Source: an uncultured Methanomicrobiales archaeon (GTDB taxonomy: Archaea > Halobacteriota > Methanomicrobia > Methanomicrobiales > Methanospirillaceae). Taken from it: a stretch of DNA of 61,371 bases. The notes below the pieces were generated by a model. It saw nothing but the letters and a program-made list of their open reading frames with translations, made no database searches and was not told where the DNA came from. Position 1 is the first letter of the stretch; every line of letters starts with the position of its first letter. Both the position numbers and the translations under genes were made by a program. Below are positions 15,919 to 24,987 of the stretch, in pieces. The stretch is from contig CAIYHQ010000069.1 of NCBI GenBank assembly GCA_903926075.1, positions 1-61,371 on the forward strand. The letters are read 5' to 3'.

Positions 15919-15940
15919 ATAAAGGTTTGTAGACCTTTAT
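15919..15940 (-). terminator. Perfect hairpin at the end of the DUF2298 operon
   Basis: ATAAAGGT (15919-15926), a 6-nt loop and ACCTTTAT (15933-15940) form a perfect 8-bp stem. It straddles the stop codon of the DUF2298 gene and lies just upstream of the rpl7ae promoter. It may end or protect the upstream transcript; no U tract follows. Confidence 0.35.
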
Positions 15941-18033
15941 TGATTGCTCTGTATAGCGGGCCTCTGGTAAATTTCTACGTTATTACGGTTAAAAACGCGC
16001 ACAAGATCCGGATAGGCATCGCTGACATTGTATTTAGACCTTTCATTTTCACCTATAAAGAGGTGTGAAATCCCATATTTTTCCATGAGGAATGATGTCA
16101 TCGAAGGGTCTTCATACATAGTCTGGACATCGTTAAGACGTTCCCCGTACCAGTTGTTATCATCACCCCTCCATTGGACTTCGTGGCCTGACTCCCCAAG
16201 GATCGTGGGTATGCCTGTAAGTGAAGATACACGGGAGAAGTATGAGTAATCGTCCCCAATGGCCTCAGCTACGCCGGTTACATTATTTTGTGATTTAAGG
16301 AACAGAATCCCTTCATAATCTTCAGGATGGGTATATGACAGGTAATAGATCCCGTCCAGAGTCGGGTGACCGACCGAGGTCTTTTCTGGAGAAAATACTG
16401 GAGATATTATTAGTCCCAGGGCAACAATGCAGATGATTATTTTTACTATCCTGGGAGAGATGTTGAGAGGTTTTATACGATTTGAAAGCATCTCGCCAAT
16501 AAATATAAAACAGGATATTCCAAGGAGTACCCAGGCTGCATAATAAAACTTGAAAATCGTGTTCATCTTGTAATATGAATCTCCGAATGAATCTTTGAGA
16601 TAGAAAAACTCACAGAAAAGCAATACCGCGAGTCCAAAGAATGCAAGAAGTCCGGTAACGGTCCGACCTCTCTTCACCGGGAGGTAGAGAATAGGAAGGA
16701 GAATAATTGCTGCAGAGAACCTCTGAAGAAGTAAAAAGGGCAGAATAATAATAGCAATGTATGGGCGCCTGATTATGTCTTTTAACAGGTATATAACCAG
16801 AATTGCTATAAAAAATCCGTTTACGAGCAAAAATTGTTCTGGTGCGGTTGGGCTTTGTACAGGAAATACTCCTTTAAGTTCAATCCCTTCGATCTGGAGA
16901 TAGTAAGGGAAAAAGAGGAGTACTGCAGTAACTGGAACAATTATTCCCAATATCAGGAAGTCCTTCCAGTTTTCACGGATTTTTCGTGATATATTCCTTA
17001 TATGGCCCTTAACCTTTCCCTCATTATGCTGGGAATCATCAGGTTTAAGTTGTCTCCATGCTATCACTATGGCAGTGATAACTGTAATTGGGCCAAATAT
17101 GAGGGCGTCCCATGTATTCATGAGTCCCATTGTCCCAAGTGAAATGACTACCAGAAGTGAAATTATATATTTATCTCTTTTTATGCAATTTTCCCATTTG
17201 AGGTATGTGTAAACGAGTAGTGCTATCAGAAAAGTTGTATTAAACAGTCCTATAACATGGGGATGGACATCACCCCAGAGAAATGAAAAGAGAGGAAATT
17301 CATGGATAGTATCCGTAATGGTTCTCGTACTGTCCCACATAACTGATCCCCAGGGTTTACCCTTGATAATATTTACAATAAAAGCAGGATTTACGAGGAG
17401 AAGCGTGAGTATGGGTAAGTACCGAAACCGTTGTAGAAGAAAGTGACCAATTAAGAACAGGTTAACAGCTGTAAGGCCAAAGATAGTGGGAAGTGAAAGA
17501 TTAAAAACCACCTGGGATGGAACACCGCTAACGATACCCAGCATTCCGAGGAGCCAGTAACCAAGGTAATAATAGACATTCAGATGTCCCCCGATAAACC
17601 ATGGATCAACAGGAGGAGCGACCGGTGTTCTCATAATCGACGCAAGAAAAGCATGGTCCATAAACTTCTCTGCAAAGTCGATCGGAGGGTTTTCATATTT
17701 GAAGACAAGAAGTGCAGTAAAAAATACGAGGAATACAAAAATCCATTTACCATAACCAGCTATATCTTCCCTTTTGTATTCTCCTCTCAATATATTCAGG
17801 ATAAAAAGAATTACAAATGGAACCAGGGCCAAAATAACAGGATAACCTATTGTTCCAAGGTACCAGGAGATTATGGCAAAGATAAGGAGCGATGCAGAAC
17901 CTGAAACCGGGAAAGCATACTCCTTCATGGTCTTTTTTAACCATGGAGTGAGTGATATAGTAAGAAATCCAATTATTCCAAGCCACACTGCGGCCATTAC
18001 AACATAATCACTGACGATTGCCATCCTCACCAT
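15937..18033 (-). CDS. DUF2298 / YYY-family polytopic membrane protein
   Basis: A 698-residue membrane protein with roughly fourteen hydrophobic segments and a C-terminal soluble part from about residue 575. The NVYYYLGYWLLG motif near residue 150 is the triple-tyrosine signature of the Chlor_Arch_YYY/DUF2298 family, which resembles membrane glycosyltransferases that use lipid-linked sugars. An acidic stretch (PWFIGG, then HLNVYYY) precedes that segment. It is the last gene of a four-gene overlapping operon with a GT2 enzyme and a flippase-like protein, which supports a role in surface glycan or glycolipid assembly. Activity is inferred. Confidence 0.82.
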   Translation of the reverse strand: MVRMAIVSDYVVMAAVWLGIIGFLTISLTPWLKKTMKEYAFPVSGSASLLIFAIISWYLGTIGYPVILALVPFVILFILNILRGEYKREDIAGYGKWIFVFLVFFTALLVFKYENPPIDFAEKFMDHAFLASIMRTPVAPPVDPWFIGGHLNVYYYLGYWLLGMLGIVSGVPSQVVFNLSLPTIFGLTAVNLFLIGHFLLQRFRYLPILTLLLVNPAFIVNIIKGKPWGSVMWDSTRTITDTIHEFPLFSFLWGDVHPHVIGLFNTTFLIALLVYTYLKWENCIKRDKYIISLLVVISLGTMGLMNTWDALIFGPITVITAIVIAWRQLKPDDSQHNEGKVKGHIRNISRKIRENWKDFLILGIIVPVTAVLLFFPYYLQIEGIELKGVFPVQSPTAPEQFLLVNGFFIAILVIYLLKDIIRRPYIAIIILPFLLLQRFSAAIILLPILYLPVKRGRTVTGLLAFFGLAVLLFCEFFYLKDSFGDSYYKMNTIFKFYYAAWVLLGISCFIFIGEMLSNRIKPLNISPRIVKIIICIVALGLIISPVFSPEKTSVGHPTLDGIYYLSYTHPEDYEGILFLKSQNNVTGVAEAIGDDYSYFSRVSSLTGIPTILGESGHEVQWRGDDNNWYGERLNDVQTMYEDPSMTSFLMEKYGISHLFIGENERSKYNVSDAYPDLVRVFNRNNVEIYQRPAIQSNQ

Positions 18034-18982
18034 CCTCCATTTTACGGCTTATTGTGCTGCTTATCAGCTCCGGAATCCAGTCTCTGAAGAAATAAATTCC
18101 AATAATTCCACCCGCAGCGGTCACCAGGTTCTTAATGAGATGGTCTGTAACTGCAATAAGAGTTGCTGCAGCCGGGCTAATACCTGCAAGTCCGAATGTT
18201 GTGGATAGCATAAACTCATACGGGCCTATACCCCCGGGTGTTATCGGTATTGCTTTCACTAGGTTTGCAATAACAATACCGAGAAGAATCAACATGAATG
18301 GAATAGTGGTGTTAAACATAAAAACCACCATCTGACAGGCTAATGTTTCAAGAATCCAGATTATAATTGAGGAAACACCTAGAATGATAATTGCACGAAC
18401 TGACAGGGATGCTTCCCTGACTTCATTGAGGAGATTGAGGATTATTTTAAGGTATCTGTTTTCTGAAGACATTTTTCTTATAACGATAAGGAAAATAAAG
18501 AAAATTACTCCGGCTACAAGGGTGAAAGTAATCATTTCAATAAACCAGGCAGGGACATTCAACACATAAAAAAGTGAAACAAGCCCAAGAACCGCTATAC
18601 AAACGACATCAAATACCCTCTCTACCACAAGCGAGGACAGTCCCTCTGATATCGTTGCATTATATTCATGCTTGAGAATAAATACTCTTACGAGGTCTCC
18701 AAGACGTGCCGGAACTAAGAGGTTCACGGTCTGGCTGATGACAATACATGCCGTAGAGAAAGCGAGAGTAATTTTTATATCAAGACCCGAAAGAATATGC
18801 TGGTACCTGAATCCTCTCACCCACCATGATAGGATACAGAATATGAGAGCCGGAATAAGCCAGACTGGATCTGCTGTTTTGAGCCTCTCGATAAGCTCTC
18901 CCCATACAGGGACAAGCATATAGAGAAAAATTGCTAATGCTATAAGTACCGAGAGAATAATCCCGCTAATCTTTCGATACAT
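18008..18982 (-). CDS. UPF0104 / LPG-synthase-TM (AglD-like) flippase-type membrane protein
   Basis: A 324-residue protein with about eight membrane helices of the lysylphosphatidylglycerol synthase transmembrane family (PF03706). Recognisable segments are WWVRGFRYQHIL, VNLLVPARLGDLVRVFILK, ITPGGIGPYEFMLS and AVTDHLIKNLV. In archaea this domain forms the C-terminal half of AglD-type glycosyltransferases or stands alone beside them, probably helping move polyisoprenyl-linked sugars. It overlaps GT2 by 17 nt and DUF2298 by 26 nt. Confidence 0.85.
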   Translation of the reverse strand: MYRKISGIILSVLIALAIFLYMLVPVWGELIERLKTADPVWLIPALIFCILSWWVRGFRYQHILSGLDIKITLAFSTACIVISQTVNLLVPARLGDLVRVFILKHEYNATISEGLSSLVVERVFDVVCIAVLGLVSLFYVLNVPAWFIEMITFTLVAGVIFFIFLIVIRKMSSENRYLKIILNLLNEVREASLSVRAIIILGVSSIIIWILETLACQMVVFMFNTTIPFMLILLGIVIANLVKAIPITPGGIGPYEFMLSTTFGLAGISPAAATLIAVTDHLIKNLVTAAGGIIGIYFFRDWIPELISSTISRKMEDGEDGNRQ

Positions 18983-19691
18983 TCAGCTGCCACCATAATC
19001 TGAAAACAGATCTACCCATTGAGAGAACATCGTTTCTACGGACAGTTGTCCCAGCCCCCTGTCGCCAGAGAACGGGAAATTCTTTTATTTTATATGAGTT
19101 TTTAACACCTCTCACAAGAACCTCAGTGTCCCAGAACCAGTGTGTTGCCCTGATCTTTGGAATTAGTGCGAGAATTTTCTCCCGGTTAAATCCTTTAAAT
19201 CCACATTGATGGTCAAAAAGAGGACTTCCGAGGACTGTTCTCACTAGAAAGTTATAACCTCTGCTTGCGATTTCACGGCTTAAACCCCGCTCAATGTCAC
19301 TTGAAGGCATGAGCCGTGAGCCGGTAGACATATCAAAACCTTCTTCAATAGAATTAATAAGTTCAGGAAGATGCTTTAGATCAGTAGCCAGGTCAACATC
19401 ATAATAACATACAGTTGACCCTTTTGCATATGCAAAAGCTCGGTTTAAAGCCTTTCCTCGTCCCAGACGTTCATCGCTGTGAAACAGAATGACCCTTGAA
19501 TCTTTTTTTGAGTACTCTCTTACGAACTCAGCACTGCCATCTGTACTGCCGTCTTCAGCTATTATCAGTTCAAAACCCGGGGTTATTGCATTTAATGCGT
19601 CAATTGAACGCGGGATTGCTGCGGCAAGACCGTTCTTATCATTATAAACCGGAATAACGGCTGAAACCCTGATTTCACTCAAATTTTTCAC
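18966..19691 (-). CDS. Family 2 glycosyltransferase (dolichyl-phosphate sugar synthase-like)
   Basis: About 241 residues from the GTG at 19691 (an in-frame TTG lies one codon earlier). GT-A fold motifs: VSAVIPVYNDKNGL, IIAEDGSTDGS, the DXD-type metal site in CYYDVDLATDL, and a C-terminal H..FWDTEVLVR segment. This is the polyprenyl-phosphate hexose synthase (DPM1/AglD) type. With the flippase-like protein next to it, it reconstitutes as two genes what AglD encodes as one. Cytosolic, probably membrane-associated. Confidence 0.88.
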   Translation of the reverse strand: MKNLSEIRVSAVIPVYNDKNGLAAAIPRSIDALNAITPGFELIIAEDGSTDGSAEFVREYSKKDSRVILFHSDERLGRGKALNRAFAYAKGSTVCYYDVDLATDLKHLPELINSIEEGFDMSTGSRLMPSSDIERGLSREIASRGYNFLVRTVLGSPLFDHQCGFKGFNREKILALIPKIRATHWFWDTEVLVRGVKNSYKIKEFPVLWRQGAGTTVRRNDVLSMGRSVFRLWWQLNVSKD

Positions 19692-20913
19692 CAAAACACT
19701 TCATCTTTTCTGCAACTTCCTGCCCTGCAACAATGGAACCTTCCATACTTCGCTCAGGATAATTCGGGGGGCTGAACATTCCTGCAATAAAATACCCTTT
19801 CTGTTCGTACTTTGGTATAAGTTCCCTGTAACGGACAGTATAAACAGGTCCGGCCCAGGGGTCTACTGCCATTTTATCCCACAGAATTGCGTCTGAAGGA
19901 AGTTTGAACCTTTTCAAAAGATCACGTTTCATATCCTCTCTCTTGTCTTTTGGTGTCTGGCCTGAGAAATATGATGCGAGATACACGATATGTTCTCCAT
20001 ATCTTTTAAAAGGTACAAAATTAGTATGTGCGATTAGAGCACCGTAAGGTGCCTTATCTGCCATATTCACCCAATATATCCCATTTGCAATATCCCTGTC
20101 AAGTCCAAGGGTCATGCAGGCAGCACCCTGGTACGGTGTATCAGGAAGTGCTTCACCACTTAACCTCGTAAATTCCCGGGGTGGGATTGTTGAGAGGATA
20201 GTATCATATAAAGTCCCATTAACCTCCCAACTGGAACCTGATCGTTTTATTGTTGAAACCGGACTTGATAATTTAATTTCACATCCGCTTTTACGGAGTT
20301 CACCCTCCATTCCATCAATTAATTTTGAAAAACCGCCTTTGATATAACCTAGCCGTTCTCCTTCCAGACCTCTGTCTGAACGTATTGCTATTCTGCTCAT
20401 GAGCCAGGCAGCAGAGACCGAGTCTTTGTTCTCTCCAAATTTACTCGTTAACAGAGGCAGAAAAAAGTCATTGTATGCCCTTTCACCCACCTTGTTAATA
20501 ATATAGTCCCTTGCACTTATCCCATCCAGTCTCACAGTATCTACTTTTTTTGAACGGAATGAGAGAAGTCCGATTCGCAGTTTATCAAAAAAAGTCAGGT
20601 AGGGATATTTAAGTATTTCTGGAGGAGACGTTAATGGAAATGTAACACCGTTTTTATGATAGCCGGTTGTCCCTTTAAGCCATTCAAGATCTTTTGTAAG
20701 ATCTAATTTTGAAAGTAAGGAAAATAAATTATTATCCCCCTGAAAACAATGGTGATAAAATCGTTCTATTGTTGTACCTTTACTTAGTGTGTATGATGAA
20801 AGGCAACCCCCTGAAAATGGGAGCTTTTCGTATATATCCACATCGTGGGCACGTGTAAGTTCGAGTGCGGCACTGAGCCCTGTAAGACCACCGCCTGCAA
20901 TACAAATCTTCAT
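19675..20913 (-). CDS. FAD-dependent oxidoreductase (protoporphyrinogen oxidase/amine oxidase-like)
   Basis: A 412-residue flavoprotein. The N-terminal dinucleotide-binding motif is MKICIAGGGLTGLSAALEL with the acidic strand end VDIYEK; a C-terminal FAD-contact segment reads YFIAGMFSPPNYPERSMEGS. The fold is that of the protoporphyrinogen oxidase/phytoene desaturase group. It leads the four-gene operon, so it may reduce or oxidise a polyisoprenoid or sugar precursor there. The substrate is unknown; haem synthesis is unlikely by context. Confidence 0.85.
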   Translation of the reverse strand: MKICIAGGGLTGLSAALELTRAHDVDIYEKLPFSGGCLSSYTLSKGTTIERFYHHCFQGDNNLFSLLSKLDLTKDLEWLKGTTGYHKNGVTFPLTSPPEILKYPYLTFFDKLRIGLLSFRSKKVDTVRLDGISARDYIINKVGERAYNDFFLPLLTSKFGENKDSVSAAWLMSRIAIRSDRGLEGERLGYIKGGFSKLIDGMEGELRKSGCEIKLSSPVSTIKRSGSSWEVNGTLYDTILSTIPPREFTRLSGEALPDTPYQGAACMTLGLDRDIANGIYWVNMADKAPYGALIAHTNFVPFKRYGEHIVYLASYFSGQTPKDKREDMKRDLLKRFKLPSDAILWDKMAVDPWAGPVYTVRYRELIPKYEQKGYFIAGMFSPPNYPERSMEGSIVAGQEVAEKMKCFGEKFE

Positions 20914-21135: not shown

Positions 21136-22299
21136 ATGAAGGTATTTTTCATAGGGTTTGGACAGGCTGGCGGGAAAGTCGTGGACCTTTTTGTTGGCGA
21201 TGACCTGAAGCGTGAGACTCATCACTTCAGAGCATTAGCAGTGAATACTGCACGCACTGATCTTATGGGATTGTCGCACATTGCGATGAAAAACCGTATC
21301 CTGATCGGACAGACAGTTGTGAAAGGGCACGGTGTTGGAACAGATAACGAAACGGGTGCAAGGATTACGGCGGAAGAGATCGATAGCATCATGAGCGCTA
21401 TTGATCATATAGGGACTCATGAAATTGAGGCGTTTGTAGTCATTGCAGGCCTTGGAGGAGGTACTGGTTCAGGAGGAACACCTGTTCTTGTCAGGCATCT
21501 CAAACAGACCTATAAAGAGCCTGTTTATGTGCTTGGAATTGTTCCGGCACCTGAGGAGGGCAGACTTTATTCATATAACGCAGCCCGAAGCCTTGCAACT
21601 ATCGTAAAAGAAGCAGATAATACATTTCTTTTTGATAATAGTGCATGGAAAGCCGAAGGAGAAAGTATTCAGGCTGCATTCCAGAGGCTCAATCTGGAAC
21701 TTGTAAGGCGATTTAATATTCTCTTTCGGTCAGGAGAAGGCAGAGGGCGCGGAGTTGGAGAGATGGTCGTTGACTCCAGTGAGATAATTAACACTCTTAA
21801 GACCGGAGGAATTTCGTCGGTAGGATACGCAAAAAGTGAACTGCCTTTTGAAGAAAAAGGTGTTTTTGGCAACCTGTTTGACCGGTTTTCACAAAAGAAA
21901 GAGAATGATGAAGAACACCTTGTTGGCGAAGACAAGAGTGCCCGGATTATCTCGCTTGTCAGACGTGCTGTTCTTGGAAGGCTGACTCTTCCCTGTGATA
22001 TCACTACTACTGAAAGAGCTCTCGTTCTTATTGCAGGTCCTCCACAGGAACTTGACAGGAAAGGTATTGAGAAGGCAAAAAGCTGGGTAAGTGAAACAAT
22101 TAACGGTGTAGAGGTCCGTGGAGGGGATTATCCTGTCCAAAGTCGCTTTATTGCTGCCGTGGTTCTCCTTGCAAGTGTCAGAAATGCACCACGTATTGAC
22201 GAACTGATTGCAATCGCAAAAGAGATCAAGGAGATGAAAGAAAAGAGAAAAGATGAAGTGGGCATGCTCCTCTCTGACGATGTGGAGCCGCTCTTTTAA
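21136..22299 (+). CDS. cetZ: CetZ-type tubulin/FtsZ superfamily GTPase
   Basis: A 387-residue cytoskeletal GTPase. It has the N-terminal IGFGQAGGKVVD, the tubulin signature loop GLGGGTGSGG (105-114) and VNTARTDL. The T7 catalytic loop reads VVDSSEIINTL (211-221): Asp213 is conserved, while the second acidic position is Glu216 rather than the Asp of FtsZ, as in alpha-tubulin. A charged linker (about 240-260) and a short C-terminal tail follow. CetZ proteins control cell shape in haloarchaea. The next gene, 17 nt downstream, encodes a single-pass surface protein. Confidence 0.9.
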   Translation: MKVFFIGFGQAGGKVVDLFVGDDLKRETHHFRALAVNTARTDLMGLSHIAMKNRILIGQTVVKGHGVGTDNETGARITAEEIDSIMSAIDHIGTHEIEAFVVIAGLGGGTGSGGTPVLVRHLKQTYKEPVYVLGIVPAPEEGRLYSYNAARSLATIVKEADNTFLFDNSAWKAEGESIQAAFQRLNLELVRRFNILFRSGEGRGRGVGEMVVDSSEIINTLKTGGISSVGYAKSELPFEEKGVFGNLFDRFSQKKENDEEHLVGEDKSARIISLVRRAVLGRLTLPCDITTTERALVLIAGPPQELDRKGIEKAKSWVSETINGVEVRGGDYPVQSRFIAAVVLLASVRNAPRIDELIAIAKEIKEMKEKRKDEVGMLLSDDVEPLF

Positions 22300-22316
22300 C
22301 AAAATGAGGTTAATAC

Positions 22317-23489
22317 ATGAAGACTAATTTTAAATTTTTTTTATTGTTCGTGCTTCTTGCAGCTCTCGTAATGTGCGCAGAAGGAACTATAAGTGTCGGG
22401 ACAGTTTCAATAGATCCATCGTCGGGTGATCTGGTCTCGGGTCAGACTCCTGTTTCAGCCTCATTTACTATAAAATGTATTCCGGCAAATGGTGTCACCT
22501 TTCCAAGTGATGATACAATTAAACTTCAGACAGAGATGGCTCAACCCAAATGGTCAATTGTAATTGTCAAAGATGGAATTGCAAACCCTGCAAAAGAAGA
22601 AATAGGTTCGATTGTGCATATAAGTGGATGGGAACTCTCATATCCCGCACGTACGTCAATAGAATTGCAGATCAAGCTTAATGCTGTTGCACCGCAAGTG
22701 ACAGAGGCAGGGAATAAGGTTGTATTCTCAGTCCAGGAGGTTGGCGGAGATGATTCTGGTTCTTCGGGTGAGCCGGTTACAAAGGAAGCTTATGTTGTCA
22801 GTGCTGCCGCAATGGATAAGTCAATTGCAGACTTGAAGGTAAACCTAACTAAGTTCCAGGACGCAATAGACCAGAAGATGAGCCAGGGCTTTGATGTCAC
22901 AGAAGCAAAAAAATCATTCAATCTTGCAAAGACTGCAATTGATAATGCAGACAAATCAGATTCGTTCTCAGTGAAAAAGACAGGGGTCACAACTGCACTT
23001 AAGTACATAAGCGATGGACAGGCTTCGCTTTCAAAAGCTGGATCACTTAAGGATTTGACCGCAGCCCAGAACTCAATAGATAGTCTTGATGCATTAATTG
23101 CAACATTAAAACAGAATAAAAACCTTGCAAATGACGAGAGGCTTGCATCAATTATCGCAACACGTGAAGCTGCAGCTCAGGCACTTACCGCGGCAAAAGA
23201 CGCAAATCAGCAGGGAAATGGTTCAGAATCAGCAAATCAGTTAAAAATAGCCTCTTCGAAAGCTGGAGACGGAATAACCGCAGCAAATGCTTTAAAGAAC
23301 CAGCAGTCACAGGGAGGACCTGTCCTCCCTTCAGTTCCTGCAGACACAGGGAGGATTATCGGACTTATAGTAATGGTTATCATTATTATTGGTGTCGTAA
23401 TATGTGTCGTGGTTGTTATTGCCCTCGCCTACAATAAATTCCGGAGAGGTGGAGGACGGAGAGGTAGGTATTATGACGAACTTGGGTAA
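22317..23489 (+). CDS. Single-pass surface protein coupled to cetZ
   Basis: A 390-residue type I membrane protein of no recognised family. Signal peptide 1-21; a beta-rich ectodomain with cohesin- or Ig-like spacing (about 22-155); an Ala/Lys/Asp-rich helical, probably coiled-coil, region (about 165-325); a Pro-containing linker; a strongly hydrophobic helix (about 347-372); and a short tail FRRGGGRRGRYYDELG facing the cytosol. It starts 17 nt after cetZ with a possible GAGG site, so they are likely one transcript. Context suggests it ties the envelope to CetZ filaments. That role is inference. Confidence 0.7.
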   Translation: MKTNFKFFLLFVLLAALVMCAEGTISVGTVSIDPSSGDLVSGQTPVSASFTIKCIPANGVTFPSDDTIKLQTEMAQPKWSIVIVKDGIANPAKEEIGSIVHISGWELSYPARTSIELQIKLNAVAPQVTEAGNKVVFSVQEVGGDDSGSSGEPVTKEAYVVSAAAMDKSIADLKVNLTKFQDAIDQKMSQGFDVTEAKKSFNLAKTAIDNADKSDSFSVKKTGVTTALKYISDGQASLSKAGSLKDLTAAQNSIDSLDALIATLKQNKNLANDERLASIIATREAAAQALTAAKDANQQGNGSESANQLKIASSKAGDGITAANALKNQQSQGGPVLPSVPADTGRIIGLIVMVIIIIGVVICVVVVIALAYNKFRRGGGRRGRYYDELG

Positions 23490-23613: not shown

Positions 23614-24987
23614 ATGGAACTTATTGAGAAAGTTACAATTCCTAAAAAAGAATTATTATTAATATTTTTAATAATTTTTTGCTCTTACAACCTCGTTACG
23701 ATTACATTATTAAGTGGCGATACACAACCTGCAGGACTATTACCTTTCTCTATTCTTTTCGAACAGTCTGTAGTTTTTAATAAATTTGTTAATTTTTATC
23801 CAATTGAAGGAAGTGCAAATTTTGTTGAGAGAAATGGTCAATATGTCTCATTCTTTCCAATTGTAACCCCAGTGCTAGTGGTTCCTCTATATGTTCCTGA
23901 AGCGCTTCTTATGGGTTTTGGTTATGTTCCGTTTGCACCTCCTTTTATTGGATTTATGAATAAATACTGTGCCGGATTTATAACCGCATTAGGAGCTACA
24001 ATTCTTTATTATACTTTATTTCATTTATTTGGGCGTAAAGTCTCCCTGATTCTTCTATTTATATACGCTTTTTGTACTTCGGCATGGTCAATATTCAGCC
24101 AGGCATTATGGCAACATGGTACTGGTGCTTTATTATTATCTGGGATAATCGCACTAATTTTCCTTAACGAACGTGAAAATAAAAGATATTACATCATAAT
24201 ATTAGGTTGCTTTTCTGGATTATTCATAATGAACCGAATTTCCGATTCGATTCTTTTAATTCCCTGTATTATTTTTATTTTAAAATATTATAGGAAGCAG
24301 ATATTGTACTATGTAATTCCTTTAATTCTAACCGCCTCACCGTTTTTAGTATATAACTATACATTTTTTAATTCTATTTTAGGAGGTTATAACAGTGAGT
24401 TACAGTTGTTTACTATAAATCAAAACATTTTAATACATTTTTTTGGACTATTATTCTCTCCAAATCGAGGACTTTTTGTTTACACCCCCATTCTCTTTTT
24501 TTCAATAATTGGTTATTATTTTCTATGGAAAGAAAAAAATAAAAAATTCGATAATTTTCTTCTTTGGTTTGGTCCTGTAATAATTTTGGATATATTGATC
24601 TATAGTTCATTTACAGATTGGATAGGGGGTTGGAGTTACGGGCCCAGGTATCTTTCAGGTTTTTTACCTGTATTTGTGATATACCTGGGAATATCTATTA
24701 ATAAGATATTAAAATCAAAAACGAATTTGTTGTATTTTCTCATAATGGTCCTCCTCGGAATTACCATAGTATTATCTTTTTTTATTCATCTTACGGGAGC
24801 ATTTTTCTATCCATATAGTGACTGGAACAACAGTGGTTATGATGCCTGGTCATTTGGAATTGAAAAATCCCAGATAATTACATCTTTTATAGAAGGATCA
24901 CAGCGAGTTGATTCATTAGGCCTTTTTATTTATCCTCCATTTAGTATATTATTCTATGATAAAAATTTCCATAAGATTCCCCCTTAA
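23614..24987 (+). CDS. Polytopic membrane protein, possible GT-C/ArnT-like enzyme
   Basis: A 457-residue protein with about ten to twelve hydrophobic helices. Its long first extracytoplasmic loop (about 30-95) is followed by closely spaced helices, as in GT-C mannosyl/arabinosyl transferases. Segments such as NRISDSILLIPC and FSPNRGLFVYTPILF recall undefined bacterial and archaeal glycosyltransferase-like membrane proteins. The gene is clearly more AT-rich than cetZ upstream, with many ATT/TTA codons and an AT-rich leader, which suggests transfer or weak codon selection. Function is not proven. Confidence 0.6.
   Translation: MELIEKVTIPKKELLLIFLIIFCSYNLVTITLLSGDTQPAGLLPFSILFEQSVVFNKFVNFYPIEGSANFVERNGQYVSFFPIVTPVLVVPLYVPEALLMGFGYVPFAPPFIGFMNKYCAGFITALGATILYYTLFHLFGRKVSLILLFIYAFCTSAWSIFSQALWQHGTGALLLSGIIALIFLNERENKRYYIIILGCFSGLFIMNRISDSILLIPCIIFILKYYRKQILYYVIPLILTASPFLVYNYTFFNSILGGYNSELQLFTINQNILIHFFGLLFSPNRGLFVYTPILFFSIIGYYFLWKEKNKKFDNFLLWFGPVIILDILIYSSFTDWIGGWSYGPRYLSGFLPVFVIYLGISINKILKSKTNLLYFLIMVLLGITIVLSFFIHLTGAFFYPYSDWNNSGYDAWSFGIEKSQIITSFIEGSQRVDSLGLFIYPPFSILFYDKNFHKIPP

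Follow-up and report, generated by a model that had tools for sequence, protein, structure and literature searches.

A conserved single-pass surface protein encoded directly after cetZ, candidate membrane partner of CetZ in Methanomicrobiales and related archaea

Introduction

CetZ filaments control the shape and motility of archaeal cells. The closest described systems are found among proteins that act with FtsZ or MreB. SepF is a cytosolic protein that combines an amphipathic membrane-binding helix with a beta fold binding the C-terminus of FtsZ. RodZ and ZipA bind their filaments through a folded domain located in the cytosol, and RodZ also has a domain outside. In EzrA, the helices are cytosolic and follow an N-terminal membrane helix.

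In the extracellular vesicles of H. volcanii, no protein is more abundant than CetZ1, which is described as envelope-associated, its anchor being left unnamed (PMC10927574). The CetZ passages of a review that gives SepF as the anchor of FtsZ name no CetZ anchor (PMC7617429). Genes conserved beside cetZ were surveyed by Brown and Duggin in 2023 (PMC9856176), whose main text describes nolA upstream of cetZ1 together with cof and pur genes, and pili loci beside cetZ2 and the cetZ of Thermococcales. Outside Halobacteria, this text covers only cetZ genes that fall outside the Halobacteria-like branch, and it notes few neighbourhood similarities in Methanomicrobiales and Archaeoglobales. It names no membrane partner 3′ of cetZ1, although an uncharacterised arCOG may stand in the figures or supplement. 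An earlier note on the DNA studied here, written from the sequence, had stated that no archaeal CetZ receptor of the kind described below was known to its author. The searchable literature agrees: neither a CetZ membrane partner nor an account of HVO_2203 or HVO_2205 was found in a search of mainly open-access journal papers, and the family appears to be previously undescribed there.

The cetZ gene and its neighbour

The window analysed is a stretch of 61,371 nucleotides from an uncultured Methanomicrobiales archaeon. Its cetZ gene (21136..22299, forward strand) encodes a tubulin-superfamily GTPase of 387 aa that Pfam assigns to the CetZ family, with CetZ_C (PF21011) matched at 4.4e-70 over the model from end to end and the tubulin GTPase domain (PF00091) at 5.9e-31, the GGGTGSG signature being present as GLGGGTGSGG. 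Against the ftsZ equivalog of NCBIfam, the protein scores 73.9 bits, below the cut-off of 295.2 bits. It is 60–72% identical to the orthologue of each genome of the order; pairwise identities between CetZ of the order and haloarchaeal CetZ1 are 50–54%, versus about 29% with the second CetZ of the same genome. The C-terminal peptide reads ...DDVEPLF. Across Methanomicrobiales this peptide is conserved as approximately D-x-[IV]-[ED]-P-L-F-E, the window copy being devoid of the final E; variants of the same form occur in Archaeoglobi, and DELxxLF is found in Halobacteria.

The next gene on the same strand (22317..23489) begins 17 nt after cetZ, so that the pair stands as the earlier note had described it (21136-22299 followed by 22317-23489). 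It encodes a type I single-pass surface protein of 390 aa that belongs to no named family and is called here the partner. A putative Shine-Dalgarno-like site, GAGGT (22306..22310, forward strand), lies 6 nt before the ATG. A scan for sigma-70-style promoters and terminators was discarded as uninformative for an archaeon.

Hydropathy delimits two hydrophobic segments in the partner, whose features all lie on the forward strand. One is the signal peptide (residues ~1-23, 22317..22385), the conserved A at position 23 indicating the probable cleavage site; the other is the membrane helix (residues about 350-368, 23364..23420), with a hydropathy of 3.84 over 19 residues. Such N-terminal and C-terminal hydrophobic segments occur in 56/56 complete partners of the order, including those of genomes missed by BLAST. 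The tail of the window partner reads ...KFRRGGGRRGRYYDELG and comprises a basic juxtamembrane segment, KFRRGGGRRGRY (residues 374-385, 23436..23471), recognised by its charge, and the C-terminal cytosolic motif YDELG (residues 386-390, 23472..23486), for which the consensus of the order is WDELG.

Family searches were essentially negative. The window partner reaches the cut-off of no Pfam or NCBIfam family, and 58 relatives of it give only scattered weak Pfam matches, mostly to helical families. SepF is matched neither by the window partner (Pfam and NCBIfam, E<=1) nor by the 58 relatives (Pfam, E<=0.01). PGF-CTERM (PF18204) and EzrA are likewise without a match in the window partner (E<=1; Pfam in the case of EzrA). 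A weak Pfam match to EzrA (3.1e-06) appears in one of the 58 relatives, within the extracellular helices and short of the curated cut-off, and likely reflects a shared helical composition.

Predicted structure of the partner

An AlphaFold2 model of the window partner, built on an alignment of 58 sequences, has a mean pLDDT of 90.2. The extracellular part begins with a beta sandwich resembling Ig-like domains of pilins and adhesins (residues ~24-161, 22386..22799; modelled from about residue 25 with pLDDT mostly >95). It is followed by a helical stalk or bundle (residues 163-332, 22803..23312) made of five main helices, with block pLDDT values of 94-98, then by a flexible linker, a membrane helix modelled at 346-377 and a disordered tail, whose pLDDT is 48 when the protein is folded alone. 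Structural matches of the sandwich are Gram-positive pilin and adhesin Ig-like domains with Z of 7-9, the best at 8-9, and identities of 2-12%, a close relative being absent. A sequence-profile search with the partner returned mainly helical or membrane-helix matches.

Hydropathy, model and sequence together bear out the layout given in the earlier note, namely signal peptide, beta ectodomain, membrane helix and YDELG end. The extracellular coiled coil that it also proposed is retained in part: the helices are extracellular, but the model gives several consecutive ones in place of one long coiled coil, and the region is predicted to be more like a bundle or stalk.

Pairing across Methanomicrobiales

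A common set of 61 genomes of the order was searched for CetZ and for the partner, and 60 loci were retrieved. CetZ is found in 61/61 genomes and an orthologue of the partner in 58/61 by single-sequence search. Wherever the contig runs on beyond cetZ, the criterion for an evaluable genome, the partner gene comes next and is co-oriented with cetZ (59/59 genomes, that of the window counted), usually with a gap of -32 to +17 nt. The earlier note had suggested examining conservation of the pair across the order and had regarded a neighbour varying at random between species as contrary to its idea; such variation was not seen, and the pairing, constant in all evaluable genomes, is not a matter of chance.

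As a control for synteny, the neighbouring genes were grouped into clusters. Upstream of cetZ and outside the pair, a gene for a FAD amine-oxidoreductase of PRK07233 type (19675..20913, reverse strand) heads a divergent operon (15937-20913, reverse strand) that also encodes a GT2 protein, a flippase of LPG_synthase_TM type and a DUF2298 protein, possibly a pathway for surface glycans or lipids. Throughout the order, the first three genes of this operon remain upstream of cetZ, and synteny alone is therefore partly general in these genomes. Downstream of the pair, one family (f2) and several further genomes, among them that of the window, have different genes, while no case of an interrupted pair occurs. 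At this place, the window has a gene (23614-24987) for a multi-pass membrane protein of 457 aa without Pfam match, which in most relatives is not located here.

Certain other tubulin-like loci are devoid of the partner. The deep second CetZ and the two FtsZ-like loci of the window's own genome have no partner-like neighbour, and a second close copy of cetZ in Methanocalculus (L264, L265, L266), whose product is 67-68% identical to the window CetZ, has no adjacent partner.

The C-terminal motif

The YDELG end remarked upon in the earlier note turns out to be the conserved C-terminal motif of the family. All 56 complete Methanomicrobiales partners end in [WY]DEL[GFAY], distributed as 47 WDELG, 4 YDELF, 3 WDELA, 1 WDELY and 1 YDELG. 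Overall identity among these partners is about 30% and the mean column identity of their alignment 36%; the D, E and L of the motif are three of only six invariant columns. The 56 tails are written in 32 different 15-nt sequences that yield 5 peptides, and the constraint therefore acts on the peptide. The 10 residues preceding the motif have a mean net charge of +3.7 (range +1 to +6).

At the DNA level, the pattern [WL]DELG-stop occurs at a single site in each of 48 of the 61 genomes, every time at the end of a partner gene, while the reversed pattern, used as a control, gives 2 sites in total over the 61 genomes. In one genome (G019), the WDELG site lies on a different contig from cetZ and corresponds to the missing C-terminus of a partner cut by the contig end. 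Additional WDEL-stop matches in the window's own genome (contig C91) and in another (G006, contig C56) were dismissed as chance occurrences, their open stretches spanning 9-13 codons.

The ectodomain, in some cases together with nearly all of the stalk, also occurs in further proteins of many genomes. Sixteen of them, encoded away from cetZ, were compared: the WDEL-type motif occurs in 0/16, and their C-termini lack a membrane helix, consist of polytopic membrane domains or are ordinary stop-transfer ends. In family f2 (loci L288-L293), near-full-length paralogues retain the signal peptide, sandwich and stalk of the partner but have neither the C-terminal membrane helix nor the WDEL tail; they are apparently secreted, and several genera of one family have kept paralogues of this type.

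Relatives in Halobacteria, Archaeoglobi and ANME-1

To look beyond the order, the CetZ alignment was used to scan named genomes. In Halobacteria (Haloferax, Halobacterium, Haloarcula, Halobaculum and others), cetZ1 is followed by a gene, often sharing 26-32 nt with it, for a protein of about 260 aa that has the same architecture as the window partner. Its homology to the family of the window partner is detected by hhalign at 99.4% (E 7e-22). The tails are YDKLG, YDKLR or a looser ..KLQ, amounting to a degenerate xKL ending. A full-length partner is present in 60/116 genomes, and cetZ1 immediately precedes 60 of 61 copies. In the loci examined, the genes beyond the pair (cofC) differ from those of Methanomicrobiales, and cetZ1 is followed by cofC in haloarchaea devoid of the partner. 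Roughly half of the haloarchaeal genomes sampled have CetZ1 and no partner; most belong to one large family or to genera of the Halorubrum type, and CetZ1 can therefore work without the partner there. This distribution shows a partner apparently lost in some haloarchaeal lineages and not universally required. Conversely, the partner is absent from 4/4 haloarchaeal genomes in which no strong CetZ1 match was found, and all partner-bearing genomes have CetZ (60/60 in haloarchaea and 14/14 in Archaeoglobi).

In Archaeoglobi, the partner measures about 400 aa and is related to the window family at 99.9% (E 2.7e-32) by profile comparison. A homologue directly follows cetZ in part of this group and in ANME-1. 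Both genes are present in 14/14 Archaeoglobi genomes, and in at least 10 of them they are far apart or on different contigs. Linked or not, all complete Archaeoglobi partners end in [WF]DEL[KR], as WDELR, WDELK or FDELR. The ANME-1 partner (257-293 aa) is recognised by profile comparison at 97% (E 7e-11), and its tails read RGIY or similar, not WDEL.

Several loci show other arrangements. The unlinked partner of some Archaeoglobi lies beside a surface protein of about 900 aa of the PGF-CTERM type (L270, 1588-5827; L272, 1753-6839), and these neighbouring proteins match the PGF-CTERM family PF18204; in L272, a second partner-like gene, with a product ending in RRRDKW, comes after the gene of the ~900-aa protein. 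A cluster of three in L271 (4812-8305) comprises a second tubulin-like gene, cetZ and a partner ending in WDELR. In genomes of Hydrothermarchaeota type (L209, L236 and L238, from 5001 onward), a second tubulin-like gene lies 8-9 nt after cetZ, and its product has a DIxPL-type end similar to that of CetZ. A 602-aa CetZ-partner open reading frame (L219, 4764-6569) was rejected as a Rosetta-stone fusion, since most of the signal peptide is missing and the CetZ part lacks its C-terminus; it most likely arose by a frameshift (indel) in the metagenome assembly of overlapping genes.

Possible role of the partner and alternative explanations

The earlier note had seen in this protein a natural candidate for a link between a tubulin-like filament and the envelope. 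A functional association of the partner with CetZ is well supported by the genome comparisons, since the pair, fixed in Methanomicrobiales, is found again in Halobacteria, Archaeoglobi and ANME-1, but docking of the tail on CetZ receives no signal from structure prediction. For this prediction, CetZ and the partner of a Methanoculleus, separated by an in-frame gap, were joined by reading the stop codon as a residue and folded as a single AlphaFold2 chain with an alignment of 47 rows, 10 of them paired; no docking was seen under these conditions, and the tail had a pLDDT of 38, against 48 in the window partner alone, an outcome that counts as null and does not disprove docking. The looser Halobacterial motif and the different ANME-1 tail imply that docking, if it exists, changed between groups. 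Haloarchaeal CetZ1 proteins with and without partner differ at a handful of positions, for example E128, A170 and a charge swap at R184. This comparison was set aside as evidence for an interface because the losses concern few lineages and the acidic bias of halophiles confounds charges.

We lean slightly towards the partner being a dedicated membrane partner or anchor of CetZ filaments of the CetZ1 (Halobacteria-like) type, docking through its C-terminal peptide. This reading is suggested by the nature of the most constrained feature, a cytosolic peptide, together with gene order and co-occurrence with a filament-forming GTPase. The Ig-like sandwich on its helical stalk would be positioned to touch the S-layer, the sheath or surface glycans, while a single membrane-crossing helix and a short basic stretch would present an acidic and aromatic peptide, [WYF]DEL[GKRFAY], to the cytosol. 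We infer that the tail binds CetZ directly and the ectodomain binds the envelope. Docking of the peptide would hold the filaments at the membrane and couple them to the envelope, avidity coming from many weak contacts between tails and filament along the polymer. The envelope association of CetZ1 in H. volcanii fits this reading; the haloarchaea that have CetZ1 alone, the degenerate Halobacterial and divergent ANME-1 tails and the second cetZ copies of Methanocalculus weigh against it.

Other explanations of the same data have to be weighed. That the pair has been kept by chance within a locus syntenic as a whole would agree with the conservation of the divergent upstream operon, but the downstream genes change where the pair does not, in Halobacteria the pair stands among different genes, and separated Archaeoglobi genes retain the tail; frozen order without function thus has hardly any credibility and is largely refuted. 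The persistence of the tail in unlinked Archaeoglobi and its absence from unlinked ectodomain relatives argue for a functional motif. Its function could be unrelated to CetZ, as a topogenic, sorting or turnover signal such as a protease recognition tail, in which case the pair would simply be a conserved operon. Short conserved C-terminal motifs can act as degrons. LonB is reported to control the turnover of CetZ1 (PMC9263693), which is compatible with this explanation, yet a motif missing from the 16 membrane or secreted relatives of the same organisms and unique in each genome is unlike a general sorting signal, and the window partner has no PGF-CTERM signal; this explanation is very improbable.

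Two further explanations keep the partner in the CetZ pathway. The tail could bind another cytosolic protein, be it an adaptor, a relative of MinD or SepF, or a regulator of CetZ, since its conservation and the linkage to cetZ leave the binding partner unnamed. The AlphaFold2 fusion is consistent with such an indirect contact, as is the reported regulation of CetZ1 localisation by MinD proteins in Haloferax (PMC11621097). It is, however, CetZ that adjoins the partner in Methanomicrobiales, Halobacteria and linked Archaeoglobi, and no third gene is found there in all three. We consider indirect contact rather unlikely. The dependence could also run in the reverse direction, with CetZ positioning or assembling the surface protein, a client involved in adhesion, sheath or S-layer, and the tail serving as an address label. 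The adhesin- and pilin-like sandwich, the PGF-CTERM neighbours of some unlinked Archaeoglobi partners and the asymmetry of occurrence (CetZ persists without partner, and no partner without CetZ was seen in the haloarchaeal and Archaeoglobi genomes examined) all fit a cargo; against this, a single copy per genome and a tail more constrained than the ectodomain are equally expected of an anchor and favour neither direction. We consider the cargo explanation distinctly unlikely.

Should direct binding of the tail to CetZ prove true, the partner would define an undescribed family of cytoskeleton-envelope linkers common to major groups of Halobacteriota. The accessible literature searched offers no answer as to how CetZ filaments attach to the envelope, and the partner is a strong candidate for this link, one that lends itself readily to testing. 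In the genetically tractable Haloferax, the question comes down to one gene directly after cetZ1 and one five-residue peptide, and the natural losses in some haloarchaea provide a ready comparison.

Comparison with known systems

The partner shares features with each of the described systems and coincides with none. EzrA, a regulator of FtsZ with spectrin-like helices, has helical repeats as the partner does, but those of the partner are extracellular. RodZ and ZipA, bacterial linkers of MreB and FtsZ, associate a single-pass protein with a cytoskeletal polymer as proposed here; the partner differs from them in having a short peptide as its only cytosolic part, and no sequence match to them was found. 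SepF, the archaeal membrane anchor of FtsZ (PMC8178401, PMC8187382), resembles the partner in its proposed role, that of tying a polymer of the tubulin superfamily to the membrane, while the partner, a type I membrane protein, possesses an ectodomain and has no SepF family match. A more ambitious proposal, to which we give somewhat less than an even chance, is that of an ancient, dedicated transmembrane receptor in which an Ig-like ectodomain would be coupled to CetZ polymers by a five-residue docking peptide, and which would have existed alongside CetZ1 before Methanomicrobiales, Archaeoglobi, Halobacteria and ANME-1 diverged. Such a receptor would be comparable in outline to an integrin.
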